A stretch of DNA of 64,000 nt from Cordylochernes scorpioides (taxonomy: Eukaryota; Arthropoda; Arachnida; Pseudoscorpiones; Chernetidae), in contig CP092870.1 of the NCBI GenBank assembly GCA_030710605.1, positions 58,151,057 through 58,215,056 on the forward strand, written 5' to 3'. Below, piece after piece: positions 7,850-64,000 of this stretch. The notes under the pieces were generated by a model. It was not told where the DNA came from and did no database searches. It worked only from the letters and a program-made list of their open reading frames with translations. The position numbers and the translations under genes were made by a program. Every line of letters starts with the position of its first letter. Position 1 is the first letter of the stretch.

Positions 7850-9192
7850 CTTTATTGACACCTTTAAGTCTTAAATAGATTCTCCAATAACAGAAATGTT
7901 GGGTACATACAGTAATCAACAACAATAAAAAGCTTTATTAAGACCTTTTAGTCTTATAGTGATTCTCCAAGCACAGAAATGTAGGATAGATACAGTAAAC
8001 AACAACAACAAAAAGCTTTATTAATACCTTTCAGTCTTTTACAGATTCTCCAAGCACAGAAATGTAGGGTACATACAGGAATAACAGTAATAGTACCAGT
8101 AAACAACAACAAAAAAAGCTTTATTAATACCTTTCAGTCTTTTACAGATTCTCCAAACACAGAAATGTAGGGTACATACAGGAATAACAGTAATAGTACC
8201 AGTAATCAACAACAACAAAAAGCTTTATTAATACCTTTCAGTCTTATACAGATTCTCCAAGCACAGAAATGTAGGGTACATACAGGAATAACAGTAATAG
8301 CACCAGTAATCAACAACAAAAAGCTTTATTAAGACCTTTCATTCTTATACAGATTCTCCAAGCACAGAAATGTAGGGTACATACAGGAATAACAGTAATA
8401 GTACCAGTAATCAACAACAACAAAAAGCTTTATTAAAATCTTTCAGTCTTTTACAGATTCTCCAAACACAGAAATGTAGGGTACATACAGGAATAACAGT
8501 AATAGTACCAGTAATCAACAACAACAAAAAGCTTTATTAAGACCTTTCAGTCTTATACAGATTCTCCAAGCACAGAAATGTAGGGTACATACAGGAATAA
8601 CAGTAATAGTACCAGTATTCAACAACAACAAAAAGCTTTATTAAGACCATTTAATCTTATACAGATTCTCCAAGCTCAAAAATGTAGGGTACATACAGAA
8701 ATAACAGTAATAATACCAGTAATCAACAACAACAAAAAGCTTTATTAAGACCTTTTAGTCTTATACAGATTCTCCAAACACAGAAATGTAGGATACATAC
8801 AGGAATCAACAACAACAAAAGCTTTATTAAGACAGTCTTATACAGATTCTCCAAGCACAGAAATGTAGGGTACATACAGAAATAACAGTAATACTACCAG
8901 TAATCAACAACAAAAACAAGCTATATTAAGACCTTTTAGTCTTATACAGATTCTCCAAGTACAGAAATGTAGGGTACATACAGGAATAACAGTAATAGCA
9001 CCAGTAATCAACAACAACAAGCTTTATTAAGACCTTTCAGTCTTATACAGATTCTCCAAGCACAGAAATGTAGAGTACATACCGAAATAACCGTGATAGT
9101 ACCAGTAATCAACAATAACAAAAAGCTTTATTAAGACCTTAATCTTATACAGATTATCCAAGCAGAAATGTAGGGTACATACAGGAATAACA
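7850..9192 (-). repeat. ~104-bp satellite, left half
   Basis: About 14 units, most ~104 bp and some ~80-85 bp. Read on the minus strand each unit contains AATCTGTATAAGAC, a short loop, GTCTTAATAAAGC and (TTG)n, then TACTGTTATTCCTGTATG. The stem-loop plus AATAAAG plus TTG tract resembles the 3' end of the LINE at 32064-36794. The array is interrupted by an LTR element at 9198 and resumes at 13085. Confidence 0.9.
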
Positions 9193-9197
9193 GTAAT
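9193..9197. repeat. Target-site duplication GTAAT (left) of BEL-like element
   Basis: GTAAT precedes the left LTR and is repeated at 13080-13084 after the right LTR. It derives from the satellite word CAGTAAT. Confidence 0.85.
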
Positions 9198-9511
9198 TGT
9201 TGAGATTACGCGAGGTCAAGATTGAAGGAACCTCCCCCCAACAAGTAAGACTCCGACCTGAAGTCTTGATATTGATTGGACTGCTTTGGGTGATCAAGCG
9301 AGGAAGGAAAATAACGAAGGCAGAAACCAGCGGCTACACGCGCAGAAGCTCTCGCTCTACTAAGAAACTCTTTATTTCAACAACACGGCTCAGTTATATA
9401 CAAAAGGGAAATTTACATAATAACAATTTATACACTCAATAGAAAAATCTACATCTCTAGTCATACACTCAAAAAAGGATATTTACATATTGTATGTTAC
9501 GACTTTTAACA
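9198..9511 (-). repeat. 3' LTR of BEL-like element
   Basis: 314 bp, TGTTGAGATT...TTTTAACA on the plus strand. The 217 bp from GGTGATCAAGCG onward match the other LTR with about one difference. The first ~95 bp differ at about a dozen positions, including a 2-bp indel. Confidence 0.85.
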
Positions 9512-9532
9512 TACCCCCACCTTTCTTTTTTT
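9512..9532 (-). promoter_or_regulatory. Polypurine tract of BEL-like element
   Basis: On the minus strand the sequence next to the 3' LTR is AAAGAAAGGTGGGGGTA, a purine-rich primer for plus-strand DNA synthesis. Confidence 0.7.
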
Positions 9533-9616
9533 GTAAAAAGAAAAAATCCGGCATACTGCGGCACCCTCTCCATACACACCACCGGAGGTTGCCCCTTAAG
9601 CGTCCATCTTCCTCTT

Positions 9617-10471
9617 CTAAAGAAATCGGAGGTAGTCCCAATCATTTTCCCTGATGGCCATCACCTGGAAATATCTCCTCACGTCGGCCAAAACTCCGTA
9701 CTTATTTTTCCGATATTTCATCCTTATTTCCGGGATTCTCCTCAGTAGAATGGGTCTCCTCTTCAAATACCGTCTTAAAGATAGTCCGCCGCGTCCTCGA
9801 CAGGAAGCGTCGCCAAATACTGGCCGTATAGGCGCAGCCCTGGACTCACTCTTAAACCAATCTTTTGGATCAATAATCCCTTCCTCCATCTTTGATTCAG
9901 TACCTTGTTCTGCATCCAGGTTTTCTTCCTCCACCTTTGAATCAGTACCCTGTTCTGCATCCAGCTTTTCCCCCACCGTCGAATCAGTACCTTGTTCTGC
10001 ATCTATATTTTTCGCTTCATTTCCATCATGATCATCAATCGATTCAGTTTCATCTGAAATCTTTACTTGGTCAGCGCCTTCAGCTATCGCTCTAGAATTG
10101 TTTACCGGTTCATAACCTTTAATTGCCGTCTCAGAATCCTTCACTCCGTCGCCCTTAGGCTCATCTTCAAAATCCTTTATTCCGTCGCCCTTAGGCTTAT
10201 CCTTAGAATCCTTTATTCCTTCGTCCTTAGGATTCGCTTCAGATTCCTTTACGCCTTCGCCCTTTGGCTCCTCTTCAGAATCCTTTACTCCGTCTTTGAG
10301 CTCAGCTTCAGAATCCTTTTCTTTAATATCATTCGCAGCACCTTTTTTGCCCTCATATTCAATATCTACCATAGAGGGAGCTGGACAAGCTTCCTTTAGC
10401 ATTCTAGCTTTAGCTAGAGTAGGCTTCACATCCGTAGCTCTAGCAGTTTTTACTGAATCCTCTTTTTCCAC
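9617..10471 (-). pseudogene. Gag C-terminal acidic repeats fused to truncated BEL/Pao-like RT
   Basis: The ~284-residue frame starts inside the gag frame, not at a real start (GTG at 10471). Residues ~45-115 are acidic repeats of about 14 residues of the type KDSEDEPKGDGV. Residues ~155-200 carry three copies of DAEQGTDSK-like repeats. From ~210 the sequence changes to the N-terminal RT region of BEL/Pao elements: RPVF.DAS, LSLRRYL, IPEIRMKYRKNKYGVLADV, then ENDWDYLRFL. The frame then meets TAG where the family has a tryptophan codon. The YxDD motif and everything later are absent. The join between gag and RT looks like an internal deletion. Family assignment rests on motif recognition only. 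Confidence 0.6.
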
Positions 10472-11460: not shown

Positions 11461-11496
11461 AGCTTCTTAATTCTTTTCCGATCTGCAGGCTCTCCC

Positions 11497-12732
11497 ACTT
11501 CCTCTGCTACTCGGCAGGCTAATACTTCCTCTGCACTCGGCAGGCTAATACTTCCTCTGCACTCGGCAGGCCAATACTTCCTCTGCACTCGGCAGGCTAA
11601 TACTTCCTCTGCACTCGGCAGGCTAATACTTCCTCTGCACTCGGCAGGCCAATACTTCCTCTGCACTCGGCAGGCTAATACTTCCTCTGCTACTCGGCAG
11701 GCTAATTCTTCCTCTGCTACTCGGCAGGCTAATTCTTCCTCTGCTACTCGGCAGGCTAATTCTTCCTCTGCTACTCGGCAGGCTAATACTTCCTCTGCAC
11801 TCGGCAGGCTAATACTTCCTCTGCACTCGGCAGGCCAATACTTCCTCTGCACTCGGCAGGCTAATACTTCCTCTGCACTCGGCAGGCTAATACTTCCTCT
11901 GCACTCGGCAGGCCAATACTTCCTCTGCACTCGGCAGGCTAATACTTCCTCTGCTACTCGGCAGGCTAATTCTTCCTCTGCTACTCGGCAGGCTAATTCT
12001 TCCTCTGCTACTCGGCAGGCTAATTCTTCCTCTGCTACTCGGCAGGCTAATTCTTCCTCTGCTACTCGGCAGGCTAATTCTTCCTCTGCTACTCGGTAGG
12101 CTAATTCTTCCTCTGCTACTCGGCAGGCTAATTCTTCCTCTGCTACTCGGCAGGCTAATTCTTCCTCTGCTACTCGGCAGGCTAATTCTTCCTCTGCTAC
12201 TCGGCAGGCTAATACTTCCTCTGCACTCGGCAGGCCAATACTTCCTCTGCACTCGGCAGGCTAATACTTCCTCTGCACTCGGCAGGCTAATACTTCCTCT
12301 GCACTCGGCAGGCTAATACTTCCTCTGCACTCGGCAGGCCAATACTTCCTCTGCACTCGGCAGGCTAATACTTCCTCTGCTACTCGGCAGGCTAATTCTT
12401 CCTCTGCTACTCGGCAGGCTAATTCTTCCTCTGCTACTCGGCAGGCTAATTCTTCCTCTGCTACTCGGCAGGCTAATTCTTCCTCTGCTACTCGGCAGGC
12501 TAATTCTTCCTCTGCTACTCGGCAGGCTAATTCTTCCTCTGCTACTCGGCAGGCTAATTCTTCCTCTGCTACTCGGCAGGCTAATTCTTCCTCTGCTACT
12601 CGGCAGGCTAATACTTCCTCTGCACTCGGCAGGCTAATACTTCCTCTGCACTCGGCAGGCTAATTCTTCCTCTGCTACTCGGCAGGCTAATTCTTCCTCT
12701 GCTACTCGGCAGGCTAATTCTTCCTCTGCTAG
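11497..12732 (-). repeat. 26/27-bp minisatellite in the element leader
   Basis: About 46 units of two types: a 26-bp form (CACTCGGCAGGCTAATACTT...) and a 27-bp form (CTACTCGGCAGGCTAATTCT...). Types occur in runs, 6-7 of the short form then 4 to >10 of the long form, so the array has block structure. The long reading frames here are artefacts: the 27-bp form translates as a 9-residue repeat and each 26-bp unit shifts the frame. Confidence 0.9.
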
Positions 12733-12745
12733 ACCAGCCCACGCA

Positions 12746-12763: not shown

Positions 12764-12767
12764 TTAA

Positions 12768-13079
12768 TGTTAAGATTACGAGGTCAAGATTGAAGAATCT
12801 CCTCCCAACAAGTAAGACCTCTACCTGAAGTCTTGATATCAGTTTGGACTGCCTTGGGTGATCAAGCGAGGAAGGAAAATAACGAAGGCAGAAACCAGCG
12901 GCTACACGCGCAGAAGCTCTCGCTCTACTCAGAAACTCTTTATTTCAACAACACGGCTCAGTTATATACAAAAGGGAAATTTACATAATAACAATTTATA
13001 CACTCAATAGAAAAATCTACATCTCTAGTCATACACTCAAAAAAGGATATTTACATATTGTATGTTACGACTTTTAACA
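12768..13079 (-). repeat. 5' LTR of BEL-like element
   Basis: 312 bp, TGTTAAGATT...TTTTAACA on the plus strand. See the partner LTR for the uneven divergence. Confidence 0.85.
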
Positions 13080-13084
13080 GTAAT

Positions 13085-13745
13085 AGTACCAGTAATCAAC
13101 AATAACAAAAAGCTTTATTAAGACCTTAATCTTATACAGATTCTCCAAGCAGAAATGTATGGTAGATACAGGAATAACAGTAATAGTACCAGTAATCAAC
13201 AACAACAAAAAACTTTATTAAGACTTTTAGTCTTATACAGATTCTCCAAGCATAGAAATGTAGGATACATACAGGAATAACAGTAATAGTACCAGTAATC
13301 AACAACAACAAAAAACTTTATTAAGACCTTTCAGTCTTATACAGATTCCCCAAGCACAGAAATGTAGGGTACATACAGGAATAACAGTAATAGTACCAGT
13401 AATCAACAACAACAAAAAACTTTATTAAGACCTTTCAGTCTTATACAGATTCCTCAAGCACAGAAATGTAGGGTACATACAGGAATAACAGTAATAGTAC
13501 CAGTAATCAACAACAACAAAAAGCTTTATTAAGACCTTTCAGTCTTTTACACATTCTCCGAGCACAGAAATGTAGGGTACATACAGGAATAACAGTAATA
13601 GTACCAGTAATCAACAACAACAAAAAACTTTATTAAGACCTTTCAGTCTTATACAGATTCCCCAAGCACAGAAATGTAGGGTACATACAGGAATAACAGT
13701 AATAGTACCAGTAATCAACAACAACAAAAATCTTTATTAAGACCT
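13085..13745 (-). repeat. ~104-bp satellite, right half
   Basis: About seven units continuing the array at 7850-9192, beginning directly after the GTAAT duplication at 13080-13084. Units here are more regular (~104 bp). Confidence 0.9.
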
Positions 13746-13860
13746 TCTAGCCACACGAGATAACCAAGTGTGTATACACTCATGGACAAAACTTAAGGAA
13801 GTTGTATCTTTTTGCATGTATATCGGGATTGAGACAAAAACTCTGAAAGATACTCTCATG
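13746..13860 (+). repeat. Single unit of the 120-bp satellite
   Basis: Contains CACGAGATAACCAAGTGTG, ACTCATGGACAAAACTTAAG and TATATCGGGATTGAGAC, the marker words of the arrays at 18775, 23240, 38535 and 62616. It is joined directly to the 104-bp array. Confidence 0.8.
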
Positions 13861-16108: not shown

Positions 16109-16111
16109 CAG

Positions 16112-17814: not shown

Positions 17815-18180
17815 TTTAGTTCTCAACTGACCGAATATGTCCATTATGTAATAAAAAGAACAGACTTGGAACTGGAGCACCACATGTTTTTCTGTCTAAG
17901 GTTAATAAGTGAAAAGGAACTTATTTTGCATAAAATTGGATCAAATCATCTTGTTCTGGAGACTCTGTTGTCTAGGACGACAAAGAATAAATCCAATACA
18001 TTTGTCCTGTACAAGTTTTACAGGCTGTACAAGAGAAGAAACATTGAGAAAAGAGAGCCGTATGTAAATAGATATGTAAATAAACGATGTATGTAAATAA
18101 CTCATCTTTTCTAACCAATTATACACCTGGATGAATCCTGTGTAGGACATAGGTCCCCAATAAAAGGTTTGTTGTTGTAT
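17815..18180 (+). pseudogene. LINE 3' fragment: ORF2 C-terminus, 3'UTR and tail
   Basis: The frame contains CPLCNKKNRLELEHHMFFC, a C-x2-C...H-x4-C knuckle like that of the full LINE at 36363. It continues to about 18096 (ending NKRCM) before a stop. The 3'UTR ends in GGATGAATCCTGTGTAGGAC, loop, GGTCCCCAATAAAAGG and TTGTTGTTG, the shared tail module. This is a different LINE family from the full-length one. A close copy lies at 24700-24975. Confidence 0.65.
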
Positions 18181-18189
18181 ATATAGAGT

Positions 18190-18420
18190 TTAACAGGGCT
18201 GTACAAGAGAAGAAACATTGAGAAAACAGAGCCGTATGTAAATAGATATGTAAATAAACGATGTTTGTAAATAACTCATCTTTTCTAACCAATTATACAC
18301 CTGGTTGAATCCTGTGTAGGACATAGGTCCCCAATAAGAGGCTTGTTGTTGTATATATAGAGTTTTACAGGGCTGTACAAGAGAAGAAACATTGAGAAAA
18401 CAGAGCCGTATGTAAATGGG
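18190..18420 (+). repeat. Tandem copies of the same LINE 3'UTR/tail
   Basis: One complete tail (18195-18358: GGGCTGTACAAGAGAAGAAA...CCCCAATAAGAGG, TTGTTGTTG) and the start of another (18368-18420) follow directly after the first fragment. This shows head-to-tail amplification of a LINE tail, unit ~175 bp. Confidence 0.7.
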
Positions 18421-18774
18421 CAGTCATAGATAAGGTGGAAATCCTATAAGAAAAAAAAGTTAAAAAATCAAAACATATCTTGGGTTGAAAAATGAATTTT
18501 CACTTACAACGAAATTTCAATGATCATATTTTCCTTTATCGAATTTCTCAGTAGCTACATCAATGACGCTTTAAACAGCATTTGGAAATATTTCAAATAA
18601 ATACATTTAAAACTGATTTATTTGATGCCATTGTTGTCCTCCCCGGGCTATCTTGAAAAATGAGCGTCGAGATATCGGTACCTATAATAGAATTTACACT
18701 CATGGACACAAGGAAGTGAAAAGTATTTGATGTCGCCCGCTGTCTATTTTTTAAAAAGAGACAAAGGCTGTTCA
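18421..18774. other. Unassigned spacer
   Basis: AT-rich, no recognised feature. A partial ACTCATGGACA word near 18700 hints at a degenerate 120-bp unit. Confidence 0.4.
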
Positions 18775-19250
18775 CACTAGGTTATCTGGTGTGTCTTCAA
18801 TAAAGGTCACTGTAATATCTTTCAGAGTTATTGTCTCAATCCCGATATACATGCTAAAAAGTACAACTTCCTTAAGTTTTGTCCATGAGTGTATACACAC
18901 TTGGTTATCTCGTGTGTCTTCAATAAAGGTCACTGTAATATCTTTCAGAGTTATTGTCTCAATCCCGATATACATGCTAAAAGGTACAACTTCCTTAAGT
19001 TTTGTCCATGAGTGTATACACACTTGGTTATCTCGTGTGTCTTCAATAAAGGTCACTGTAATATCTTTCAGAGTTATTGTCTCAATCCCGATATACATGT
19101 TAAAAGGTACAACTTCCTTAAATTTTGTCCATGAGTATATACACACTTGGTTATCTCGTGTCTTCAATAAAGGTCACTGTAATATCTTTCAGAGTTATTG
19201 TCTCAATCCCGATATACATGCTAAAAGGTACAACTTCCTTAAGTTTTAAT
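18775..19250 (-). repeat. 120-bp satellite, four units
   Basis: Four near-identical units at exactly 120-bp spacing with TCAATAAAGGTCACTG, TTCAGAGTTATTGTCTC and CTTAAGTTTTGTCC. Because 120 is a multiple of 3, both strands show long open frames; they are not genes. Confidence 0.9.
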
Positions 19251-23537: not shown

Positions 23538-24227
23538 ATCACACACACACACACAAAAGCCTTTATTAAGACACACAGGTCTTACAGAGGATTCTCCTTG
23601 GGGTTACAAGACGGAGAAACCTATGAAAGTGGGAAATATACAAAGGGGTAAAAATGGAGAAACATTATATACACATGGTAAATATATACAGATTATTATT
23701 TGAATAATCCTATGGAAAATAAGAAAAAAAAAAGGAAATATGGATGGGAGAAGTGGAGAGCGAAAAAAGGAAAGAAAACAGGTATTTACATATGGAACAT
23801 ACATATAATGAAACAAGTCAATTTGAGCTCTTCTGCTCACACAGCACAGGTGGAACATGGCTTTTTCAAGAAATCTTTAAGAGATTTCCAGGAAAATCCG
23901 AGTGTTCAGAGTTGTAAGGTAAACACCGTTTTATCAGTGTGGGGGGTTAACTTATCGTACCTGCCCAAACAAATAATTGGATATTGGCTCTGTCCTCCTC
24001 ATCAAACAGAAATTTTTGGTATGTTTGGATGTTCGGTTAAGTCTTTCTTTTTTTACAGCATTTTTATGGAAGTTATATAGATTCAAAGCTACTGAACTAT
24101 TGTCTATAAAGTTGGATAATAAAGAATATAATGTGAGGTGTGTATGGCCTATCTTAGAAAAAAGTATTTTTCTTTCCGTTTCAAGAGGCATGCATTCAAA
24201 TATATAATGTTCTAATTCATTTTCGGT
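23538..24227 (-). pseudogene. 5'-truncated LINE insertion
   Basis: The minus strand starts near 24222 in frame: TENELEHYIFECMPLETER, the last half of a C-terminal CCHC knuckle of a LINE reverse transcriptase. The frame then continues ~80 residues to 23952. The 3'UTR ends in GAGAATCCTCTGTAAGACC, loop, GTCTTAATAAAGGC and a (TG)n tract. A 14-bp duplication (TAACTCTGAAAGAT, 23524-23537 and 24228-24241) flanks it. All upstream ORF2 domains are missing. Sequence differs from the full LINE at 32064, so it is another family with the same tail design. Confidence 0.75.
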
Positions 24228-24699: not shown

Positions 24700-24975
24700 A
24701 AGTAAAAATAAACTTATTTTACATAAAATGTGATCAAATCATCTTGTTCTGGAGGCTCTGTTGTCTAGGACGACAAAGAATAAATCCAATACATTGGCCC
24801 TGTACAAGTTTTACAGGGCTGTACAAGAGAAGAAACATTGAGAAAAGAGAGCCGTATGTAAATAGATATGTAAATGAACGATGTATGTAAATAACAAATA
24901 TTTTCTAAACAATTATACACCTGGGTGAATCCTGTGTAGGACATAGGTCCCCAATAAAAGGTTTGTTGTTGTTGA
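24700..24975 (+). pseudogene. LINE 3' fragment
   Basis: Close copy of the last part of 17815-18180: the end of the ORF2 frame, 3'UTR with GTGAATCCTGTGTAGGAC, the stem-loop, CCCCAATAAAAGG and TTGTTGTTGTTG. The knuckle is not included, so this copy is more 5'-truncated. Confidence 0.65.
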
Positions 24976-31289: not shown

Positions 31290-32063
31290 TGTTTCAGCCA
31301 AACGGAAAATAAGAATGGAAGAATTTGCATAACCTGAGAAAGTAGACCATATATGCATTTAAGTATTTATAGTATTGACCAAACGGCAAAAAGGAAGATA
31401 GAAATGATAGAGGATGTTTTACTTTATTTGCCTTTTTTTTTTTTCAAAGTCAGGAACTACTTTAGATTTGGGTCTTTCTCCGAGGGAATTATTCTGAAAT
31501 CCTCTTTGATAGGGTGACGTCCAAATATCCTTCAAGCCTGGTGGCAGCTGGACTCTTATGGCATCGGCCGAACGGCAAATAAGAATGGAAGAATTTGCAT
31601 AACCTGGGAAGATAGACCATATATGCATTTAAGTATTATAGTGTCGGTCAAATGGCAAATAAGAATAGAAGAATTTGCATAACCTGGGAAGGTAGCCCAT
31701 ATATGCATATAAGTATTATTTATAGTGATGGCTAAACGGCAAATAAGAATGGAAGAATTTGCATAACCTGGGAAGGTAGAACATATATGTATTTAAGTAT
31801 TATTTATAGTGTTGGCCAAACGGCAAATAGGAATGGAAGAATTTGCATAACCTGGGAAGGTAGATCATATATGCATTTAAGTATTATAGTGTCGACAAAA
31901 CGGCAAATATAAATGGAAGAATTTGCATAACCTGGGAAGGTAGATCATATATGCATTTAAGTATTATTTATAGCGTTGGCCAAACGGCAAATAGGAATGA
32001 AAGAATTTGCATAACCTGGGAAGGTAGATCATATATGCATTTAAGTATTATTTATAGTGTCGG
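31290..32063 (+). repeat. ~83-bp satellite, left half
   Basis: Units with CCAAACGGCAAATAAGAATG, GAATTTGCATAACCTGGG and ATATATGCATTTAAGTATT at ~83-bp spacing. A ~175-bp unrelated stretch (31386-31560) interrupts it. It resumes at 36796 after the LINE insertion. Confidence 0.85.
32049..32063. repeat. 15-bp target-site duplication of the LINE (left)
   Basis: TATTTATAGTGTCGG here and again at 36795-36809, directly flanking the element. Confidence 0.85.
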
Positions 32064-32163
32064 ATTCGCCGCTAGGTGGCCGGACAATAAACAACACGTG
32101 CAGCACCGCTCCGGTAAATATAGTTTATATTACTAATATTTCAGTGTATATTTGCCTTATACT

Positions 32164-33123
32164 ATGAAAGGGATAATACTGTTACTCTTAGTACTCGTGG
32201 TATGCAACAATAAATATGCAAATTTACTCAAGGTAACGCACTATACAAAAAACTCAGTACGAAGGGATAATGATGGACAATGTGGCCTAAATATAAACTT
32301 ACCATCTGGGAATATATCTGGTAACCAAAAAAGACTGCTATGTATCATTCTGGCTCTATTATTTATCTCAGGCATTGAACAAAACCCAGGCGCTCCAACC
32401 AAAAAGCAAACTACATTGACTGCGCCAGTACACTCTGGAGAGAGAGAATCAATGGATGGCGAGCTAAAAATGCTAATCTTAAACATGGCGACGGAAATAA
32501 AGAGTCTAGGAGAGAGAATTGACATCAGACTTACCAAAATAGAGACTCGAATGGACGATTGGGACAAGCGATTCTGCAATATAGAGGAGAAGCTAACTAA
32601 ATGTATAGAGTCGCAACAGGCTACCGAAAAACTGGCTTCATGTAATTCGTTAAAGGTAAATGAACTGGAGGCTAGAGTCGAATTTTTTTAGACGAGACTG
32701 CGTGAGCCCAATCTAGTGTTCTATGGTATTGAGAGGGAGGGTGACGAAAATCAGGCAGATTGTAACTTAAAGATTCAAAACATAATTAGAGATAAAATGG
32801 AAATCGGAGATGATTTAAAAATAACAAAATGTCACCGACTTTCACGCGGATCCAATGCACCAGTTCTTGTTGTGGTGCCTGATTATGCTTATAGAGCAAA
32901 AATATTTTAAAATGCCTACAAACTCAGAGATACTAAAATTTCGATAAGTAAAGATTATAGTAAAAATGTTAGAGAGCAACGGCGCATCCTAATTGCAAAA
33001 AGGAAAGAATTGGGTGAAAGGGGAATAAAATCGAAGTTGAGAGATAACAAGCTTTTTTTAAATGATAAAGTCTGTAAAGTGATGAATGGCCAAGTTGTTG
33101 ATAGCACAGGAGTTGCTATATAG
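32164..33123 (+). pseudogene. LINE ORF1-like protein with 2A-like motif, coiled coil and RRM-like region
   Basis: First ATG at 32164. Residues 4-13 are a hydrophobic signal-like stretch. Residues 57-77 are hydrophobic then SGIEQNPGA, a 2A-like motif. Residues ~95-175 are a heptad-rich coiled coil (ATEIKSLGERIDIRL...). TAG at 32689 follows a T7 run; the same frame then gives REPNLVFYGIEREGDEN, like the RNA-binding core of L1-type ORF1 proteins, until TAA at 32908. It continues with KELGERGIKSKLRDNKLFL to TAG at 33121. The last stop may be the natural end; the first two are likely mutations. The protein family binds LINE RNA. Confidence 0.7.
32371..32394 (+). other. Degenerate 2A-like ribosome-skipping motif
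   Basis: Codons for G-I-E-Q-N-P-G-A preceded by a leucine-rich stretch (residues 58-69). The 2A consensus is D-(V/I)-E-x-N-P-G followed by P. Two consensus positions differ (D to G and final P to A), so skipping is probably lost in this copy. Such motifs at LINE N-termini are established for several invertebrate elements. Confidence 0.65.
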
Positions 33124-36100
33124 CAAAAACCTTGTAGAAACAATTGTGTAAATAGAAGAAATACGACATCAAAATCACAAATTAATTCTCCGCCCCATAA
33201 TCAAATAACGGAAAGTTACTACGACATAAATACATGTAAATATGATTCTCAAGACGATGACAATGCAAATTTTTCTGAAAATTCGCGAGACATCGCGGAA
33301 AAAATAATATGTTGGAATATAAATGGTTTCTATAGGATTCTTTCGATATTTCCACTCCTCGAGCACATAAAGAACTACGAAATTTTTGCTCTACTTGAAA
33401 CATGGTGCCTGAACAGGACTAACATAACACTAAAAGATTATCAAATTATCGAATTACCTGCCACCAAAGAATCTGGAAGGGGAAGAGGGTCAGGGGGTAT
33501 AATTGTCGGTTTTAGGGAAGGCGGGAAATATAGAGTAGAGAGTTCAGAAAAGGATGGCACTTGGTTATCTATTTTCTTATCAACAAACACAAGAGCCCCC
33601 CAACATGTTATCTGTTTAATATTTGTATACCTTCCTCCAAACCAAATACAGCTGCATAACTTAGATAAACTGTTCACATACATTCAAAAGCAAATAGCAG
33701 ATGGAAAAGAAATTATTTTACTTGGAGATTTAAACATCAGAACTGGGAAGTTGGGAGGACTACACAATCCACTTAATTTCCAGCTCCCTCTAACATCGGA
33801 AAGAAGGGCCAAAGATCATATAATATCATCTCTGTCTAATAAACTTCTTGATTTCCTGGAAGATAATTCTTTGACAATAGTTAATGGAAGATCTAGAGGT
33901 GATAAAGATGGAGATTTTACATACATATCTGAAAGAGGCTCTTCAACTATTGACTATTGCATACTCTCACAGGGTTCACTACAAATTTTACTGGACTTCA
34001 AAGTCGATGACCAACTGTACTCTGACCACCACCCTTTGGTTTTAACGATAAAAGGCCAAAACTTCAATGAGAAAAAAACCAAACGGGAAGATTATAATAT
34101 TACGAGATATAGATGGTCAGCCGATGGACTCGCAATGTTTAAAATGAAACTGGAAGAATTGCGGGAAAAAAACATACCAGCCTCCGATGACCTTGTATAC
34201 ACTTTCAATCAGCGAATTTTGGAAGCAATGTCATCTGCAAAAATAACCTACTCAATTAAGGGCGGCCCCAGGAAATCTAAGCCGTGGTTCGATAAGGACT
34301 GCTATGATATGAAAAAAACTGGCAAAAGAAAGTCTGAAGAAATATCGTAAAACAAATAGATTGGAAGATAGAGAATGTTATGCTTCTTCCAGAAATAAAT
34401 ATCTCGCTTTATTGGATCTAAAAAGAAAGGCTTTGATAATGAAAAACAGGAAATACTCAGAAATGCTAAAGACTCAAAGACCTTCTGGAAAACTATTGCG
34501 CTCTACAAAAGCACATCTATAATCCAAGGAGAAATATCTATACAGGACTGGCTGAACTTTTACCGCGAACTAATGACTACAGAGAAAAATTTAAGAATTT
34601 GTAATTTACATAATGTGATTTCTCAGAACGATCCTATATTGGACTCAGAGATAACCAATGCAGACATATACAAGGAGATAGCTGGTTTGAGGAGTAACAA
34701 GGCATGCGGGCCCGATGGCATCCCCAATGAAGTATTAAAAACACTCCCTGATTCGTACATACTGCTGTTGAAACAACTCTACAATAGTGTTATGACGACT
34801 GGAAAATACCCAGCAATTTGGACTAATTCCACCATACGCCCAATCTTTAAAAATGGTTATAAGAACAGCCCCTCTAACTACCGAGGTATTGCACTGATTA
34901 GCAATGCATCAAAGCTTTTCACATCAATCCTAAGATCACGACTGGAGGAATGGGTCGAAGGAAGAAGGGTTATACCCGAAAACCAAGCGGGATTTAGAAA
35001 AGGAAGATCATGTATTGACCACATATTTACACTAACTACTTTAATCCAACTTTCATTAAGAAAAAAGAGGGGAAAACTATATGTCTTTTTTGTCGATCTA
35101 AGGAAGGCATTTGATACTGTACCTCACTCAATACTTTGGAAAAAACTTTACAACCTAGGCATAAGTTACCAATTCATAAGTACGATCAGAAGTTACTACG
35201 AACAAGCAACTATAGCTATCGATGGAAGGGATCATTTACGGAAAATATTAAGATAAACTCGGGAGTCCTCCAGGGAGAACCACTTTCCCCACTGCTATTT
35301 ATATTATTTATCACGGACTTAATCGAAATTTATAATAACTCAGACCTGCCGAGTGTAAATTTGCCAGAATTTGGAGATATCCATTTATTGCTGTACGCCG
35401 ACGACATAGCAATTATAGGTGAGTCCAGGATGAACCTCCAAAAGAAGATCAAAATACTGAAAGAATATCTCGATGAGAACTTAATGACACTAAATGAGTC
35501 CAAGTCAAAGATTATGGTGTTCCGTAATGGAGGTAAACCCTCAAATAAGGATAGATGGTTCTGGAATGATAAACCCATAACAATAACTTCAAGATATACA
35601 TACTTGGGATTCCCTCTGACACCAACAATAACAACTACTCACCCGGCAAATTACTTTAAAGGAAAAGCACTTACAGCAATTAACGCCACACACCCAATAT
35701 TAATAAAATCAAAAGCAAAGTCAATAAATTTATCAATCAAACTCTTTGATACAATAGTGAGAGCTGTCCTGATGTATGCCGCTCCATTGTGGGCAACAGA
35801 GCATAAAGACTTACTGGACAATATACAAGACATATTTATCCGTAGGTTCCTGAATCTGCCCAGATACACTCCAGGTTACCTAATCAGATTAGAAACCGGT
35901 CGTATCTCATTGAGTGTAACAGCCTTAAAATTAACCCTGAAGTATTGGCTGCGGGTGTTGAATATGAGCAGTGACAGATTGCCACGTATATGTTTTAATA
36001 GAACACGGGAACTGTCTAATGCTTCGGGCACACCCATCGGTTTCATTAAAAAGCTCACCAATCTGCTTAACAATAATGGATCCCCTGCACTTGTTTCCTG

Positions 36101-36548
36101 TGATGACCCTGAAACGCTGAGGAGCGCGATTACAGCGCTCTTAAAAACAGCGGCAGACCAATCTATACAAAACGACCTTACAAGAATGGATAAATCTAAG
36201 CTATACTCTCACTACAAAGACATTCACATATCTTTCATGACGGAGGGATACCTTTTAGGGGATTTTCCTTTCCCGGTTGTAAGACTACTCGCACAAGTTA
36301 GAATACTTTCAAGTTTTTTTAGAGAAAACCACACCAAGATGCTCTGCGGTGAGGACCCGACTTGTACCTTCTGTAATTCAAAACTAAAAAATGAAATCAC
36401 TCACTATATTTTTTATTGCTCTGCTCTGAAAGAAGAAAGAAGAACCCTTATGCTCAAAACTGGGCAACTCTGTGCTTCACTTCCATCAATAATTGACAAT
36501 ATGACCCAGAATAAGTATATTGCTACGGCGTTTTATGGTTTCCACTAG
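33124..36548 (+). pseudogene. LINE ORF2: APE endonuclease and reverse transcriptase
   Basis: Nicks target DNA and primes reverse transcription. Same frame as ORF1, open from 33124 without an ATG. Endonuclease: IICWNING (33304), LLETW, LLGDLNIR (33718), IDYCILS, SDHHPL (34021). Frame moves +1 at ~34320 and back at ~34430, then again at ~35235. RT: KACGPDGIPNEV (34702), YRGIALISNASKLF, NQAGFRKGRS, FVDLRKAFDT (catalytic Asp), GVLQGEPLSPLLF, LLLYADDIAI (catalytic YADD at ~35394). C-terminal knuckle CTFC...THYIFYC starts at 36363; stop at 36546. Catalytic residues survive, so decay is recent and due to indels. Joined translation is interrupted and not functional as read. Confidence 0.85.
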
Positions 36549-36738
36549 TCCATATCTCAGAAGAAGGCCAAGTTATACTCACTTTCTTGCTGCTACTCTT
36601 TTTGTGTTGATTTCTTGCTTCCCTCTTTCTTCTTATTATTTTTTTCCTTTTCTTGTTTTTTTTTTTCTCTTTCGCTTTTTAATCTGTATATATCGTTATT
36701 TCCTTTGTCTCACTGCTTTGTTCTTATGCATACCTCTG

Positions 36739-36794
36739 GTGAATCCTGTATAGGGTCAGTGACCCTAAATAAAGGCTTTTTGTTGTTGTTGTTG
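36739..36794 (+). promoter_or_regulatory. LINE 3' terminal stem-loop, AATAAA and (TTG)n tail
   Basis: GTGAATCCTGTA, a perfect 7-bp hairpin TAGGGTC-AGT-GACCCTA (36751-36767), AATAAA (36768-36773), then GGCTTTTTG(TTG)n. LINEs with stringent 3' recognition use such terminal hairpins as the RT binding site; that role here is inferred. Confidence 0.7.
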
Positions 36795-36955
36795 TATTTA
36801 TAGTGTCGGCCAAACGGCAAATAAGAATGGAGGAATTTGCATAACCTGGGAAGGTAGGCCATATATGCATATAAGTATTATTTATAGTGTTGCCCAAACG
36901 GCAAATAAGAATGGAAGAATTTGCATAAGCTGGGAAAGTAGGCCATTAAAAGAAT
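36795..36955 (+). repeat. ~83-bp satellite, right half, with LINE target duplication
   Basis: Starts with the 15-bp duplication (36795-36809) and continues with CCAAACGGCAAATAAGAATG units, about two copies. Confidence 0.85.
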
Positions 36956-37299: not shown

Positions 37300-38182
37300 A
37301 TATATCCAGATGGCACAAGAACCTACAGGACAACTGTCCTGGTGTGGAACTAACACCTACTCACATATTCTCAGGCCAAGCAATGGCCGCAGCCTTGCAG
37401 AAAATTGACATAGACCCAGAGCAGCAGCTTTACACATCCAAGCTAGTGGACATAGCTGCTCCTGTGATAGAGATGTATGGAGACATCTGAGGCTCTTCAT
37501 TGGACACGACAACAACAACAACAGAAATTTGACCCAGAACAGCAGCTTTGCACACCCAAGAACATTACGACTGCTGTGATAGAGATGTATAGAGATATCT
37601 GAGGCTCTTCATTGGACACGACAACAACAACAACAACAGAAATTTGACCCAGAACAGCAGCTTTGCACACCCAAGAACATTACGACTGCTGTGATAGAGA
37701 TGTATGGAGACATCTGAGGCGCTTCATTGGACACGACAACAACAACAGAAATTTGACCCAGAACAGCAGCTTTGCACACCCAAGAACATTACGACTGCTG
37801 TGATAGAGATGTATGGAGACACATCTGAGGCTCTTCATTGGACACGACAACAACAGAAATTTGACCCAGAACAGCAGCTTTGCACACCCAAGAACATCAC
37901 GACTGCTGTGATAGAGATGTATAGAGATATCTGAGGCTCTTCATTGGACACGACAACAACAGAAAATTGACCCAGAACAGCAGCTTTACACACTCAAGAA
38001 CATTGCGACTGCTATGATAGAGATGTATGGAGACATCTGAGGCTCTTCATTGGACACGACAACAACAGAAAATTGACCCAGAACAGCAGCTTTACACACC
38101 CAAGAACATTACGACTGCTGTGATAGAGATGCATGGAGACATCTGAGGCTCTTCATTGGACACGACAACAACAACAACATTA
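37300..38182 (+). repeat. 106-bp satellite locus with leader and CAA tail
   Basis: A ~90-bp leader (GAACCTACAGGAC...AGCAATGGCCGCAG) shared with 46836-46925, then about seven units (GACCCAGAACAGCAGC, AAGAACATTACGACTGC, TGAGGCTCTTCATTGGACAC), each joined by (CAA)n, ending in a longer CAA tract at ~38163. Confidence 0.85.
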
Positions 38183-39711: not shown

Positions 39712-39723
39712 ATTCCCTCCTTA
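39712..39723 (-). promoter_or_regulatory. Polypurine tract of Copia element
   Basis: Minus strand AAGGAGGGAATT lies directly before the 3' LTR and overlaps the pol stop codon at 39721-39723. Confidence 0.75.
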
Positions 39724-43675: not shown

Positions 43676-43784
43676 TTTTATTCAATTTTTATTTTCTAAA
43701 TTGGCGGTTAGTCCAATTATTTATTTTCTTTATGATTTAAATGGATCAATTGGCGGTTAGTCCAATTCGCGCGCCCAAACAACG

Positions 43785-47516: not shown

Positions 47517-47870
47517 AAAGACGCTGTTGTTGGGTTCTGTGATGCCTGGAGCTCTATCTATGCTTCCTTCCTGTGGTGAATCTGTATAAGACCGGTGGTC
47601 TTAATAAAGCTGTATGTGTGTATTCTGTTATAACGTCGGACCTGGAGGCTGTTGTTGTGTTCTGTGCTGTCTGGAGTATAGGAGCTCCATCTAAGTTTCC
47701 CTTGTGTGGTGAATTTGTATAAGACCGGTGGTCTTAATAAAGCTGTATGTGTGTATTCTGTTATAACGTCGGAACTGGAGGCTGCTGTTGGGTTCTGTGC
47801 TGCCTGGAGTATAGGAGCTCTAACTATGCTTCCTTCCTGTGGTGAATCTGTATAAGACCGGTTGTGTTGA
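47517..47870 (+). repeat. ~120-bp tail-derived tandem repeat
   Basis: Three units: CCTGGAG...GGAGCTC, CTTCCTGTGGTGAATCTG, TATAAGACC-GGT-GGTCTTA hairpin, AATAAAGC and GTGTGT. The hairpin/AATAAAG module matches LINE tails. The same family is inverted at 48690-49125. Confidence 0.8.
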
Positions 47871-48068: not shown

Positions 48069-48689
48069 TTTAAGATCTTGATAAATTTTCTACCTAAACC
48101 TAATTTTGATAGTTTCTGCCATAGTATCATATATTTGTTGTATTATATACCTCAAATAAATTATTTTTTATATAAAATTCCATAGCGCACAAAAAAAGAG
48201 AATCTTTTAAAGTAGAAATTTCTCATAGGAACGTGTACAGAAGCAATTCTACACTGAAATGTAACCTTGAGATTATTTTAAGAACCGTTCTTTAGGTAAA
48301 AAGTGGAGGTATGTCTTTTTGTTTTTCACCAAATCAGACGTTTTAAAAAACGGTTACAATCCCCCCTGGGGACAGGAATCTCTCCCATTGTCTAGTTTTA
48401 CAAGACAAAGAACGGCGTTCCGAACTGATGAGATCGTTTTTTTTAGATATGGTTAACGTTTTGAAGAAAGTCTTGTTGTAAAGGAGACAAAACATAACGG
48501 TTCTCTTCGTGTTTTTTTTTTTTTTTTTGTGTTTTTTGACCGCACACAAATGTTTATATTAGAATTTTCGTGTCTTTCTAGGCCACGAAACCACTCTTAT
48601 ACTTCAAACAAATATTCTTTATTTGTCAATCCAGAGAACCTAGCATTTTCTTGTCTATGGAAGGAAGATGGAGCTACTATACTCCAGGC
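48069..48689. other. Unassigned spacer
   Basis: No convincing gene; short frames on both strands lack any recognisable domain. Contains a T16-17 run near 48511. Confidence 0.4.
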
Positions 48690-49125
48690 AGCACAGAACC
48701 CAACAACAGCCTCCAGGTCCGACGTTATAACTGAATACACACATATACAGCTTTATTAAGACCACAGGTACTATACAGATTCACCACAGGAAGGAAGCAT
48801 AGATAGAGCTCCTATACTTCAGGCAGCACAGAACCCAACAACAGCCCCCAGGTCCGACGTTATAACAGAATAAACACATACAGCTTTATTAAGACCACCG
48901 GTCTTATACAGATTCACCACAGGAAGGAAGCATAGATGGACCTCCTATACTCCAGGCAGCACAGAGCCCAACAACACTCTCCAGGTCCGACGTTATAACA
49001 GAATACACATATACAGCTTTATTAAGACCACCGGTCTTATACAGATTCACCACAGGAAGGAAGCATAGATGGAGCTCCTATACTCCAGGCAGCACAGAAC
49101 CCAACAACAGCCTCCAGGTAACAAG
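48690..49125 (-). repeat. ~120-bp tail-derived tandem repeat, inverted relative to 47517
   Basis: About four units with ACAGCTTTATTAAGACC, CACCACAGGAAGGAAGC and CAGCACAGAACCCAAC, the complement of the 47517-47870 family. Confidence 0.8.
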
Positions 49126-59700: not shown

Positions 59701-61767
59701 GCCACAACACCAGCTTTAGCATGGTAACAAAGCCACAACACCAGTTTTAGCATGGTAACAAAGCCACAACACCAGTTTTAGCATGGTAACAAAGCCACAA
59801 CACCAGTTTTAGCATGGTAACAAAGCCACAACACCAGCTTTAGCATGGTAACAAAGCCACAACACCAGTTTTAGCATGGTAACAAAGCCACAACACCAGT
59901 TTTAGCATGGTAACAAAGCCACAACACCAGTTTTAGCATGGTAACAAAGCCACAACACCAGTTTTAGCATGGTAACAAAGCCACAACACCAGTTTTAGCA
60001 TGGTAACAAAGCCACAACACCAGCTTTAGCATGGTAACAAAGCCACCACACCAGTTTTAGCATGGTAACAAAGCCACAACACCAGTTTTAGCATGGTAAC
60101 AAAGCCACAACACCAGCTTTAGCATGGTAACAAAGCCACAACACCAGTTTTAGCATGGTAACAAAGCCACAACACCAGTTTTAGCACGGTAACAAAGCCA
60201 CAACACCAGCTTTAGCATGGTAACAAAGCCACAACACCAGCTTTAGCATGGTAACAAAGCCACAACACCAGTTTTAGCACGGTAACAAAGCCACAACACC
60301 AGCTTTAGCACGGTAACAAAGCCACAACACCAGTTTTAGCATGGTAACAAAGCCACAACACCAGTTTTAGCATGGTAACAAAGCCACAACACCAGTTTTA
60401 GCACGGTAACAAAGCCACAACATCAGCTTTAGCATGGTAACAAAGCCACAACACCAGTTTTAGCACGGTAACAAAGCCACAACACCAGCTTTAGCACGGT
60501 AACAAAGCCACAACACCAGCTTTAGCATGGTAACAAAGCCACAACACCAGCTTTAGCATGGTAACAAAGCCACAACACCAGTTTTAGCATGGTAACAAAG
60601 CCACAACACCAGTTTTAGCATGGTAACAAAGCCACAACACCAGTTTTAGCATGGTAACAAAGCCACAACACCAGCTTTAGCATGGTAACAAAGCCACAAC
60701 ACCAGTTTTAGCATGGTAACAAAGCCACAACACCAGTTTTAGCACGGTAACAAAGCCACAACACCAGCTTTAGCACGGTAACAAAGCCACAACACCAGTT
60801 TTAGCATGGTAACAAAGCCACAACACCAGTTTTAGCATGGTAACAAAGCCACAACACCAGCTTTAGCATGGTAACAAAGCCACAACACCAGTTTTAGCAT
60901 GGTAACAAAGCCACAACACCAGTTTTAGCATGGTAACAAAGCCACAACACCAGCTTTAGCATGGTAACAAAGCCACAACACCAGTTTTAGCATGGTAACA
61001 AAGCCACAACACCAGTTTTAGCACGGTAACAAAGCCACAACACCAGCTTTAGCATGGTAACAAAGCCACAACACCAGCTTTAGCATGGTAACAAAGCCAC
61101 AACACCAGTTTTAGCACGGTAACAAAGCCACAACACCAGCTTTAGCACGGTAACAAAGCCACAACACCAGTTTTAGCATGGTAACAAAGCCACAACACCA
61201 GTTTTAGCATGGTAACAAAGCCACAACACCAGTTTTAGCACGGTAACAAAGCCACAACATCAGCTTTAGCATGGTAACAAAGCCACAACACCAGTTTTAG
61301 CACGGTAACAAAGCCACAACACCAGCTTTAGCACGGTAACAAAGCCACAACACCAGCTTTAGCATGGTAACAAAGCCACAACACCAGCTTTAGCATGGTA
61401 ACAAAGCCACAACACCAGTTTTAGCATGGTAACAAAGCCACAACACCAGTTTTAGCATGGTAACAAAGCCACAACACCAGTTTTAGCATGGTAACAAAGC
61501 CACAACACCAGCTTTAGCATGGTAACAAAGCCACAACACCAGTTTTAGCATGGTAACAAAGCCACAACACCAGTTTTAGCATGGTAACAAAGCCACAACA
61601 CCAGTTTTAGCATGGTAACCAAGCCACAACACCAGTTTTAGCATGGTAACAAAGCCACAACACCAGTTTTAGCATGGTAACAAAGCCACAACACCAGCTT
61701 TAGCATGGTAACAAAGCCGCAACACCAGTTTTAGCATGGTAACAAAGCCACAACACCAGTTTTAGCA
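50750..61767 (+). repeat. 31-bp satellite, ~11 kb, ~355 copies
   Basis: Head-to-tail 31-bp units, GGTAACAAAGCCACAACACC plus AGYTTTAGCAY. Two main variable sites (CAGT/CAGC and ATGG/ACGG), plus a rarer CATCAG variant, mark unit types. The rare variant recurs at exact multiples of 31 bp, showing higher-order structure. Small indels cluster at ~53.8-54.8 kb and ~56.8-57.7 kb. No coding potential; 31 is not a multiple of 3. Confidence 0.97.
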
Positions 61768-61950
61768 TGTTTGTCAAGCGTCCACGTGGAGACTCTTCCG
61801 TTCAGGGTATACTCTTTTTTCATGAGATCCACATGGGATCAAATGATATCTTCACAAGCTATCAAAGAGGTTTAGCTGGTAAAGTTGTTAATCCAAATCT
61901 TTGACAAAAATAAAGATAAAATTTGCCGGGAGTATATTGATCTAAAAAAT
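61768..61950 (+). repeat. Right part of the split parent repeat unit
   Basis: Directly after the satellite, AAGCGTCCACGTGGAGAC, TCCACATGGGATCAAATG, TTCACAAGCTATC and GCCGGGAGTATATTGATC follow the same order as the second half of the 50350-50690 unit. Confidence 0.75.
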
Positions 61951-61983
61951 ATTTTGTGAACTAGACGTGAAGTGCACCACGTG

Positions 61984-62195
61984 TCTATACAACAACAAAA
62001 AGCTTTATTAAGACCTTTTGGTCTTTTACAGATTCTCTGAGCAGAAATGTAGGGTACATACAGGAATAACAGTAATAGTACCAATAATCAACAACAACAA
62101 AGAGCTTTATTAAGACAATTCAGTCTTATACAGATTCTCCAAACACAGAAATGTAGGGTACATACAGGAATAACAGCAATAGTACCAGTAATTAG
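61984..62195 (-). repeat. ~104-bp satellite, two units
   Basis: Two units of the family at 7850 and 13085, including the TAAGACC...GGTCTT stem and AATAAAGC on the minus strand. Confidence 0.85.
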
Positions 62196-62615
62196 CAATG
62201 TTATTTACAATGTATCAAATAAGGGGGGGAAATAAAGGAAAAGCTTAGCATAAATTTAATATACAAGCAGATTTCTTTCTAATTTGCCTAATTTGATTTG
62301 CATATTTGCGTTTGATTATTTGAGTTACCTTATTTACAAATAAGTAATATTCTTCATTATAAATACCATTTTATAATCCTAGTTGTTTAGTCGTCTGCTT
62401 TATCTAGTAGACAATTGTTACCTGAAAGAATGAGCCTTTGTTGTCGCCATGTTTTCTCGTGGCCTTTTAGAACGTAAGTACAATAGTGATTTTCTTAAAA
62501 CCTTTTTAATATTACTAAATATATAAAGATTAGAATTTTAAAAGATATTGTAAGCAAAAATAAATAAGTATTTTCGAAAATAATTATAGAGAATATAAGG
62601 TTCTCCAAAAAGTTC
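62196..62615. other. Unassigned AT-rich spacer
   Basis: No gene or repeat recognised; contains a G8 run near 62226. Confidence 0.4.
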
Positions 62616-63205
62616 TGGAATAAAGGTCACTGTAATATCTTTTAGAGTTATTGTCTCAATCCCGATATACATGGTAAAAGGTACAACTTCCTCAGGTTTT
62701 GTACATGAGTGTATACACACTTGGGTATCTCGCGTGTCTTCAATAAAGGGCACTGTAATATCTTTTAGAGTTATTGTCTCAATCCCGATATACATGGTAA
62801 AAGGTACAACTTCCTCAGGTTTTGTACATGAGTGTATACACACTTGGTTATCTCGCGTGTCTTCAATAAAGGTCACTGTAATATCTTTCAGAGTTATTGT
62901 CTCAATCCCGATATACATGGTAAAAGGTAGAACTTCCTTAAATTTTGTCCATGAGTGTATACACACCCGGTTATCTCGTATGTCTTCAATAAAGGTCACT
63001 GTAATATCTTTCAGAGTTATTGTCTCAATCCCGATATACATGCTAAAAGGTACAACATCCTTAAGTATTGTCCATGAGTGTATACACACTTGGGTATCTC
63101 GTGTCTTCAATAAAGGTCACTGTAATATCTTTCAGAGGTATTGTCTCAATACCGATATACATGCTAAAAGGTACAACCTCCTTAAGTATTGTCCATGAGT
63201 GTATT
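62616..63205 (-). repeat. 120-bp satellite, five units
   Basis: Same family and orientation as 18775-19250, units at ~120-bp spacing; open frames on both strands are array artefacts. Confidence 0.9.
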
Positions 63206-63445
63206 TATAAAGGTTATTCGGGAATGAAATATTGAGTTCTGAAATGACCTTCAAACAACCCGGTCGTTATTTATGGGACAACCCAATATTTGAAACGGTT
63301 AATGGGTGTCGTCCCCAAACCACCTGTCAACTTAGCTAAACGGCACCGTTACAGAATACCATTCTTCTAGATTTATCTTGGCTCAAGGTCAGGAAGTTGT
63401 CCTCAAAATATTTCTTTAGTAGGTTGACATATATCATACTATATA
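63206..63445. other. Unassigned spacer
   Basis: Unique-looking sequence without recognised features. Confidence 0.4.
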
Positions 63446-63828
63446 CATGTTGTCGTTGTTGTCGTGTCCAATGAAGAGCCTCAGATGTCTCCATACCTCT
63501 CTATCACAGCAGTCGTAATGTTCTTGGGTCTATAAAGCTGCTGTTCTGGGTCAATTTTCTGTTGTTGTCGTGTCCAATGAAGAGCCTCAGATGTCTCCAT
63601 ACCTCTCTATCACAGCAGTCGTAATGTTCTTGGGTCTGTAAAGCTGCTGTTCTGGGTCAATTTTCTGTTGTTGTCGTGTCCAATGAAGAACCTCAGATGT
63701 CTCCATACATCTCTATCACAGCAGTCGCAATGTTCTTGGGTCTGTAAAGCTGCTGTTCTGGGTCAATTTTCTGTTGTTGTCGTGTGCAATGAAGAACCTC
63801 AGATGTCTCCATACATCTCTATCACAGT
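63446..63828 (-). repeat. 106-bp satellite, ~3.6 units, truncated
   Basis: Starts with TTGTCGTTGTTGTCGTGTCC and breaks off after CTCTATCACAG, where the 104-bp satellite begins. The leader seen at the other loci is missing. Confidence 0.85.
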
Positions 63829-64000
63829 CTTATACAGATTCTCCAAGCACAGAAATGTAGGTTACATACAGGAATAACAGTAATAGCACCAGTAATCAAC
63901 AACAACAAAAAGCTCTATTAAGATCTTTCAGTCTTATACAGATTCTCCAAGCACAGAAATGTAGGGTACATACAGGAATAACAGCAATAGTACCAGTAAT
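63829..64000 (-). repeat. ~104-bp satellite, runs off the window
   Basis: Begins mid-unit at TCTTATACAGATTCTCC and continues to the window end. Confidence 0.85.

Follow-up and report, generated by a model that had tools for sequence, protein, structure and literature searches.

Stringent-type long interspersed nuclear elements (LINEs) of the L2 clade, such as UnaL2, ZfL2-1 and ZfL2-2, have a 3′ stem-loop near a short-repeat tail, each LINE with a stem-loop of its own; in zebrafish L2, each protein binds its own stem-loop via the region between endonuclease and reverse transcriptase (parts of PMC4176376). In maize and sorghum, diverged LINEs of an L1 lineage and short interspersed nuclear elements (SINEs) have a conserved 3′ end of ~50 nt in common, in which a variable stem with compensatory changes stands beside a fixed flank, and the TS SINE and its RTE LINE partner both end in TTG repeats (parts of PMC3747384). 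Here, we describe a tail of comparable build in the pseudoscorpion Cordylochernes scorpioides, in a 64,000-nt stretch of contig C8 (C8:58151057-58215056; hereafter, the window) and in genome-wide counts taken over 2.62 Gb in 24 contigs. This tail, which consists of a lead-in, a hairpin, AATAAA and a microsatellite, is probably the 3′ recognition end of related, stringent-type LINEs with an apurinic/apyrimidinic endonuclease (APE-type), and the material from which satellites were built.

Unlike in UnaL2 and the ZfL2 elements, a conserved lead-in and AATAAA flank the hairpin here, and the loops vary in sequence and length. The maize and sorghum system belongs to the plant L1 clade, and section 4.3 of PMC3747384 mentions neither AATAAA with a G/T microsatellite nor satellites, while the TS pair is one of the RTE clade in Solanaceae. 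Squamate satellites also consist of retroposon parts, in that case of SINEs, and often have a longer terminal unit; the main text of PMC10702118 does not contain the terms “target site duplication” or “TSD”, whereas several of the units described here contain the target site. The chicken CR1 HinfI repeat and a cetacean L1 satellite arose from LINE 3′ untranslated regions (UTRs), as stated in the relevant parts of PMC9659126; in contrast, one tail design here gave rise to satellites several times, with target-site spacers and, possibly, re-mobilisation. Tandem P elements have junctions of the size of a target-site duplication (TSD), which the same parts of PMC9659126 explain by multiple insertion at one site, whereas the common truncation point seen here points to one insertion that was later duplicated. 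Already known are conserved LINE/SINE 3′ ends with compensatory stems, TTG-ended pairs, LINE- and SINE-derived satellites and TSD-sized P-element junctions. What is new is that these are combined, that satellites arose repeatedly with the target site as part of the unit, and that some arrays have private TSDs. No report of retrotransposed satellite arrays was found in the open-licence literature, most subscription journals being outside the search.

The shared 3′ tail

Read in the RNA sense, the tail runs from the lead-in GAATC[C]TGTATA over the hairpin and AATAAAG to a few T or C/T and a terminal (TTG)n or (TG)n. Family C is a variant, with TGTGTA in the lead-in and AATAAAAG in place of AATAAAG. 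A first-pass annotation of the window had seen one such design in several LINE families and several satellites. The LINE and satellite tails that it quoted are present and the design is indeed common to several LINE families, as judged by tblastn from the ends of their open reading frames (ORFs). A lead-in and a (TTG)n end common to all had to be amended in two respects: the 104-bp satellites and the 133-bp family at 47.5/48.7 kb have a one-C lead-in, GAATC-TGTATA, with one C fewer than GAATCYTGTRTA, and (TTG)n is the microsatellite of families A, B, C and D, while the 47.5/48.7 kb family and the element at 23.6 kb end in (TG)n. In the loci fetched from elsewhere in the genome (numbered with the prefix L), the microsatellites are G/T-rich, e.g., (TTG)n, (TG)n, (TATG)n and (TTGA)n. 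A conserved 3′ tail ending in a short repeat, not in poly(A), is a hallmark of stringent-type LINEs.

Genome-wide, GAATCYTGTRTA, that is, the CC/CT lead-in alone, occurs 7318 + 7308 times, as against 693 + 645 for the pattern read backwards. The CC/CT lead-in followed, after gaps, by AATAAA and TTGTTG yields 6100 matches on the forward strand and 0 for the reversed pattern; the reverse-strand figure, 20838, counts single places several times. The one-C lead-in with AATAAA, GAATCTGTATAN{8,22}AATAAA, was found 12949 + 12947 times (4 + 11 reversed), a total for GAATCTGTATA...AATAAA of 25,896 versus 15. Variants with other first stem bases occur 169 + 167 (8 + 8 reversed), 698 + 629 (4 + 5) and 100 + 159 (0 + 1) times. 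Such counts exclude a chance origin of the tails. Single tails were listed from the start of contig C1 onward. A scan of the loci up to L108 and of the window for any hairpin with AATAAA and a microsatellite gave 88 matches (repeats of one place included), as against 1 in reversed sequence, and revealed no family that lacks the lead-in; most of these loci had been fetched by the lead-in, which makes this a weak test.

LINE A and related families

The full-length LINE of family A occupies positions 32064..36794 (+) of the window. Its ORFs are broken, Pfam domains Exo_endo_phos_2 and RVT_1 are recognised, and its product matches L1 ORF2 (E 9.3e-15): family A has the endonuclease and reverse transcriptase of a stringent-type LINE. 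From an impression of the motifs, we take its reverse transcriptase not to resemble that of RTE. The element is flanked by an exact 15-bp TSD, TATTTATAGTGTCGG, at 32049..32063 and 36795..36809, and it has inserted inside an 84-bp satellite. Its tail (36741..36794, +), for which minimum free energy and z-score were computed, consists of the lead-in GAATCCTGTATA, the hairpin TAGGGTC-AGT-GACCCTA (36751-36767), AATAAA (36768-36773), a T-rich stretch and (TTG)n. The N-terminal part of the product (32137-32688, +) contains a hydrophobic stretch and then GIEQNPGA, like a degraded 2A-like motif; the motif D[V/I]ExNPGP is known in APE-type LINEs (part of PMC4981915).

We have told families A to O apart by stem and upstream sequence, among the matches listed (at most 100 per search) and the fetched loci. 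At least seven LINE families whose ORF ends are related terminate in this tail. With LINE A as reference, tblastn gave 65% over 321–364 aa for family B, 38% over 151–174 aa for O, 33–37% over 60–82 aa for F, 40% over 53 aa for H and 40% over 45 aa for C. Family M′ matches A at 38% over 42 aa and O at 55% over 84 aa, while the match of family N is weak (32% to A over 47 aa, E 0.006; 36% to O, E 4e-10). When C-terminal pieces were aligned with A, 55% (B), 32% (F) and 40% (H) of residues were identical.

In the window, the LINE fragments noted at 18137 and 24925 are both of family C, with tails at 18133..18177 (+) and, as a single copy, 24927..24974 (+); their stem, GGAC/GTCC, is shorter and less certain. 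The window also holds the family H tail with its (TG)n end (23540..23594, −), upstream of which the LINE ORF end is found at 24066..24224 (−; tblastn 40% to LINE A, 38% to family F). This element had been noted as the one on the minus strand, which is correct for its own orientation, but the 104-bp satellites and the 48.7 kb array are on the minus strand as well.

The idea that family E could be a tRNA-derived SINE of ~250 bp with promoter-like boxes was dropped, as Rfam gave no tRNA match and longer copies (L117; L143, L146, L147) run, by eye, into a LINE-like ORF end; in these four loci, however, pieces of A, O, F and N matched nothing by tblastn. At L070, a long palindrome is an inverted duplication centred on a family E tail.

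Conservation of the tail and covariation of the hairpin

Ten representatives (A–H, N and O) were compared in 45 pairs by global alignment. The 60 nt upstream of the tail are no more alike than shuffled sequence (58% versus 57% identity); the tail itself reaches 77% versus 55% when shuffled, and exceeds the upstream part in 45/45 pairs.

In the hairpin, both arms change together: stem pairs 3, 5 and 6 show two-sided changes between families (G-C/A-U, G-C/A-U and U-A/C-G, respectively). When the 3′ arms of six distinct stems were permuted, the observed number of Watson-Crick pairs was reached in 2/720 permutations (the registers of C and K being set by hand). Swapping hairpin halves followed by folding, from which families P and M′ were left out, gave the same picture. 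With one family for each distinct stem (n = 8), the observed total was reached by 325/100,000 swaps; without K and O (n = 6), by 13/720 permutations; and with all 14 families, seven of which (D–J) have one common stem, by 13/100,000. By these tests, the compensatory stem changes noted in the first-pass annotation are upheld. In a model-fitted alignment of 55 matches (25 distinct rows; in two of the 55, a hairpin counted elsewhere recurs as its opposite strand), 96.9% of cells pair, and cells with a two-sided change number 16 versus 4.5 ± 1.7 in shuffles (0/500).

In all, a hairpin forms between lead-in and AATAAA in 12 of the 14 families. Furthermore, the lead-in and stem classes occur in all four combinations: CC with GGG (A, B), CC with AAG (H), C with GGG (N) and C with AAG (D–G); at least one class must, therefore, have changed more than once or been exchanged. 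We take the hairpin structure to be real for most families, with few independent events, and a 3′ stem-loop with covarying arms is again a feature of stringent-type LINEs. An outer helix CCT/AGG around the hairpin, suggested by folding, was ruled out since, in families F and G, a single C faces two Gs. Two MAFFT alignments (A2 and A3), in which the 3′ arms were out of register, were not used.

Probable function of the tail

Judging from its conservation and from the zebrafish L2 precedent, the recognition end would be composed of the lead-in, a hairpin of 4–7 bp in most families, AATAAAG or AATAAAAG, and the G/T-rich microsatellite. The reverse transcriptase would bind lead-in and hairpin, copying would be primed within the G/T repeat, and AAUAAA with the G/U-rich stretch may double as a poly(A) signal inside the element.

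Several observations weigh against a recognition end of this kind. Family K folds to nothing and family O to a weak, different helix elsewhere; the hairpin of family C has 4 bp, and another fold is preferred in longer context. Seven of the 14 families (D–J) share the AAGAC/GTCTT stem, which leaves few independent compensatory events. Of the covariation expected in a larger alignment, the excess of two-sided cells came out, but the pairs with a two-sided change number three, a value reached by 172/500 shuffles, and pair types are fewer than in every one of the 500 shuffles; the alignment was, moreover, fitted to the structure. All genome-wide patterns but the lead-in-alone count required AATAAA, and the invariance of this motif is, therefore, partly a product of the search patterns. 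In families D, E and G, tblastn found no ORF match, and an ORF end was not seen for D, G, I, J or K.

One alternative, which we consider doubtful, is that the conserved part is mainly an RNA polymerase II poly(A) signal, i.e., AAUAAA and a G/U-rich downstream element, with the hairpin as a processing aid. AATAAA indeed follows directly after the stem, the microsatellites of the fetched loci are G/T-rich, and AAUAAA with subsequent G/U-rich sequence resembles what we take to be a complete poly(A) signal. However, the insertions examined terminate in the G/T repeat instead of poly(A), which means that reverse transcription would have to start inside the presumed downstream element; in addition, we know of no role of the lead-in in polyadenylation, which we count against this explanation. 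That the tail was merely kept as DNA or by recent common descent, with a functionless hairpin, is improbable: the families are related, AAGAC is the stem of seven of the 14, and K and O lack a hairpin, but the tail was kept while ORF ends diverged to 32–65% and the adjacent UTR became unalignable, the hairpin arms change together, and each lead-in (CC or C) is found with each stem (GGG or AAG), in A/B, H, N and D–G.

Dispersed insertions

In families D, E, F and G, copies share their 3′ ends and differ in length. We have searched for TSDs as exact repeats that start within 25 nt of AATAAA and recur upstream. Repeats of at least 14 bp were found at 26/86 distinct places, compared with 1/418 when 3′ flanks were swapped between loci; at a threshold of at least 11 bp, the figures are 38/86 and 10/418. 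The 26 places include L059 and L060, which have one common repeat and are probably duplicates, as well as L053, another satellite. L105 consists of little beyond the tail itself, with an 11-bp repeat.

In three family F loci (L080, L102 and L106), another 5′ head (ATGGCGAACTAAATAACTTAGTCCC...) is joined to the 3′ UTR of the family F LINE ~112 bp before the tail, and each locus has a repeat of 11–15 bp. The head has no tRNA or 5S match in Rfam. These elements are probably a non-autonomous, SINE-like partner of family F. Away from the tail, L106 contains at 807-874 (+) a tRNA covariance-model match of 30.1 bits (cut-off 29).

Satellites built from the tail

The 104-bp unit of the window is the 3′ end of the dispersed family D, in arrays at 7831..9197 and 13075..13746, in two units at 61989..62192, of which the 5′-most reaches further into family D, and in an array at 63829..64000 that continues past the window end (all −). 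Family E supplies the 3′ ends of a 133-bp satellite, a period that replaces the ~120 bp given at first, at 47548..47862 (+) with a 13-nt spacer, TATTCTGTTATAA, and at 48659..49119 (−) with a closely similar spacer. Family C forms a 174-bp tandem of its 3′ ends at 18014..18417 (+), in which the spacer is TATATATAGA and the third unit is partial. Elsewhere in the genome, we found tail arrays of 48 bp (C), 67 bp (B), 70–74 bp and ~110 bp (both D), and of 112, 113–114, 118 and 142 bp (E); units range overall from 48 to 174 bp. The proposal that such satellites descend from LINE-type 3′ ends, themselves dispersed, 5′-truncated and flanked by TSDs (26/86 versus 1/418), is borne out: the tandem unit is part of a dispersed retroposon, with ORF support in families B and C, while for D and E the dispersed parent is shown and its ORF is not.

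Neighbouring tails of the AAGAC type, 60–90 nt apart, number 1844 + 1998 versus 0. Among the 100 listed, all on C1, a single one precedes 48 Mb and the other 99 fall within 48.7–68.1 Mb, in a listing that covers 60–90 nt spacings and ends at 68.1 Mb of C1. Arrays also occur outside C1 48–68 Mb, as is seen from a 142-bp array at C1:2.2 Mb. Arrays of 70–74-bp family D tails (L109 and L118, C1:106–111 Mb) are near the middle of the 223.7-Mb contig and are possibly pericentromeric.

In the units of the 67-bp array and the listed units of the 142-bp array, the stem is mismatched: these two satellites are homogenised for a broken hairpin, which implies that an array can spread without it. The arrays of 112–118 bp mostly keep the hairpin.

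How arrays begin

Where the edges survive best, i.e., in the 67-bp and 113–114-bp arrays, in one dimer and, less clearly, in the 112-bp array, the unit is a truncated insertion plus one copy of the target site. The dimer (L073) reads TSD-unit-TSD-unit-TSD, with the identical 14 nt each time. In the 67-bp array (L131), TTGATATTCTTTCTT occurs at the left and right edges and GATATTCTTTCTT, with one variant, in the junctions; the unit comprises 6 bp of LINE, the tail and the target site. In L137, the edge repeat is also the internal spacer, GATATCAAATTAGTC, and L138 is approximately so. The unit includes the target site in L131, L073 and L137. In family E units of 118, 133 and 142 bp, the spacers (13–15 nt) are TSD-sized, the original edges being lost or unclear.

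The first-pass annotation had derived the satellites from repeated insertion or from unequal exchange at TTG tracts. Repeated insertion is unlikely because the units of one array share a common truncation point; the simplest reading is duplication between TSD copies after one insertion. The second route is retained for two satellites and not for the arrays with an included target site: in the 104-bp D junction, (TTG)n is joined to ATTACTGG, where dispersed D reads TTGCTG-ATTACTGG, and at the junction of the 48-bp C satellite TTGT meets CACCAGG, both of which would fit exchange at TTG-like sequence. A target site was not seen in the units of the 48-bp C, 70–74-bp D and 104-bp D arrays. Against the derivation from a single TSD-flanked insertion, neither the window's own arrays nor L085, L155 and L157 yielded a convincing edge repeat of 9 bp or more.

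A satellite would, in outline, start as one truncated insertion. Recombination or slippage, involving either the two TSD copies or the TTG tract and a TTG-like stretch further inside, would duplicate the truncated 3′ end, and unequal exchange would then lengthen the array, which may no longer need the hairpin.

Arrays with private TSDs

Some arrays that share a spacer have different edges. L136 contains the internal spacer of L137 (with one base different) and another 13-bp edge repeat. L145, L146, L148 and L156 have the spacer TATATTCAGAACAA in common (one base differs in L145, and it is shortened in L156), and their edge repeats are all different: respectively, 14 bp exact, 11 bp with one mismatch (7 exact), 12 exact and 9 exact. 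Among nine arrays picked by eye for visible edges, which were set by hand, seven (L131, L073, L137, L136, L145, L148 and L156) have an exact edge repeat of at least 9 bp, as compared with 0/72 cross-locus edge pairs (maximum 8). With one mismatch allowed, controls reach 10, which makes L146 (11) and L138 (11) marginal. L151 and L152 duplicate L131 and L145 and were omitted from the count. L085 and, by eye, L155 and L157 show their edges without a convincing repeat of at least 9 bp, and in most of the other arrays fetched one edge is missing.

Retrotransposition of multi-unit array RNA, favoured since each unit carries the start signal, appears to account best for the private TSDs. Every unit has hairpin, AATAAA and priming repeat, and tail satellites may consequently stay mobile, multi-unit transcripts being inserted as ready-made arrays and spreading beside unequal exchange; we give this proposal an even chance.

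Alternatively, and with somewhat less than even probability, a resident single insertion was expanded by ectopic gene conversion or unequal exchange, without retrotransposition of array RNA. The resident TSD would then be kept, and the five cases (L136, L145, L146, L148 and L156) lie in the array-dense region C1:48–68 Mb, though the listing from which they were drawn extends no further than 68 Mb. Expansion of this sort does not readily produce nearly the same spacer in insertions with different TSDs and 5′ lengths, as in these five; L157, which has no TSD, likewise speaks for retrotransposition in that its array starts, by eye, within the microsatellite of the preceding unit, like a truncated multi-unit copy.

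Other repeats in the window

A 123-bp satellite with AATAAAGG (18773-19247 and 62619-63204; also in the flanks of L102 and L106) exists, in addition, as a dispersed repeat with CACTCATGGACAAAACTTAAGGAAG-like sequence; it adjoins family D and H tails and is not clearly such a tail itself. A 106-bp satellite (37462-38173, 45367-46824 and 63455-63827) has TTGTTG and the inverted repeat AGATGT-CTCCAT-ACATCT without AATAAA, and may be another retroposon end. Two long ORFs at 39721-43681 (−) have the look of a Ty1/copia-type gag-pol, with zinc knuckle, integrase and reverse-transcriptase motifs recognised by eye. The window also contains a 31-bp satellite (50751-61769; ~355 copies, 96% matches) and a 27-bp minisatellite (11497-12731; 46.5 copies), in which several frames are open.

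Significance

The birth of satellites is usually inferred from old arrays that have lost their origins. In this one genome, the stages stand side by side: the single truncated insertion with its TSD, the dimer with three copies of the target site, short arrays, arrays in which a broken hairpin has been homogenised, and arrays that lie elsewhere and have different TSDs. If arrays do retrotranspose, the arrival of one satellite variant at many places would be accounted for. The tails, moreover, offer naturally varied hairpins with which to test how a LINE protein recognises its RNA.

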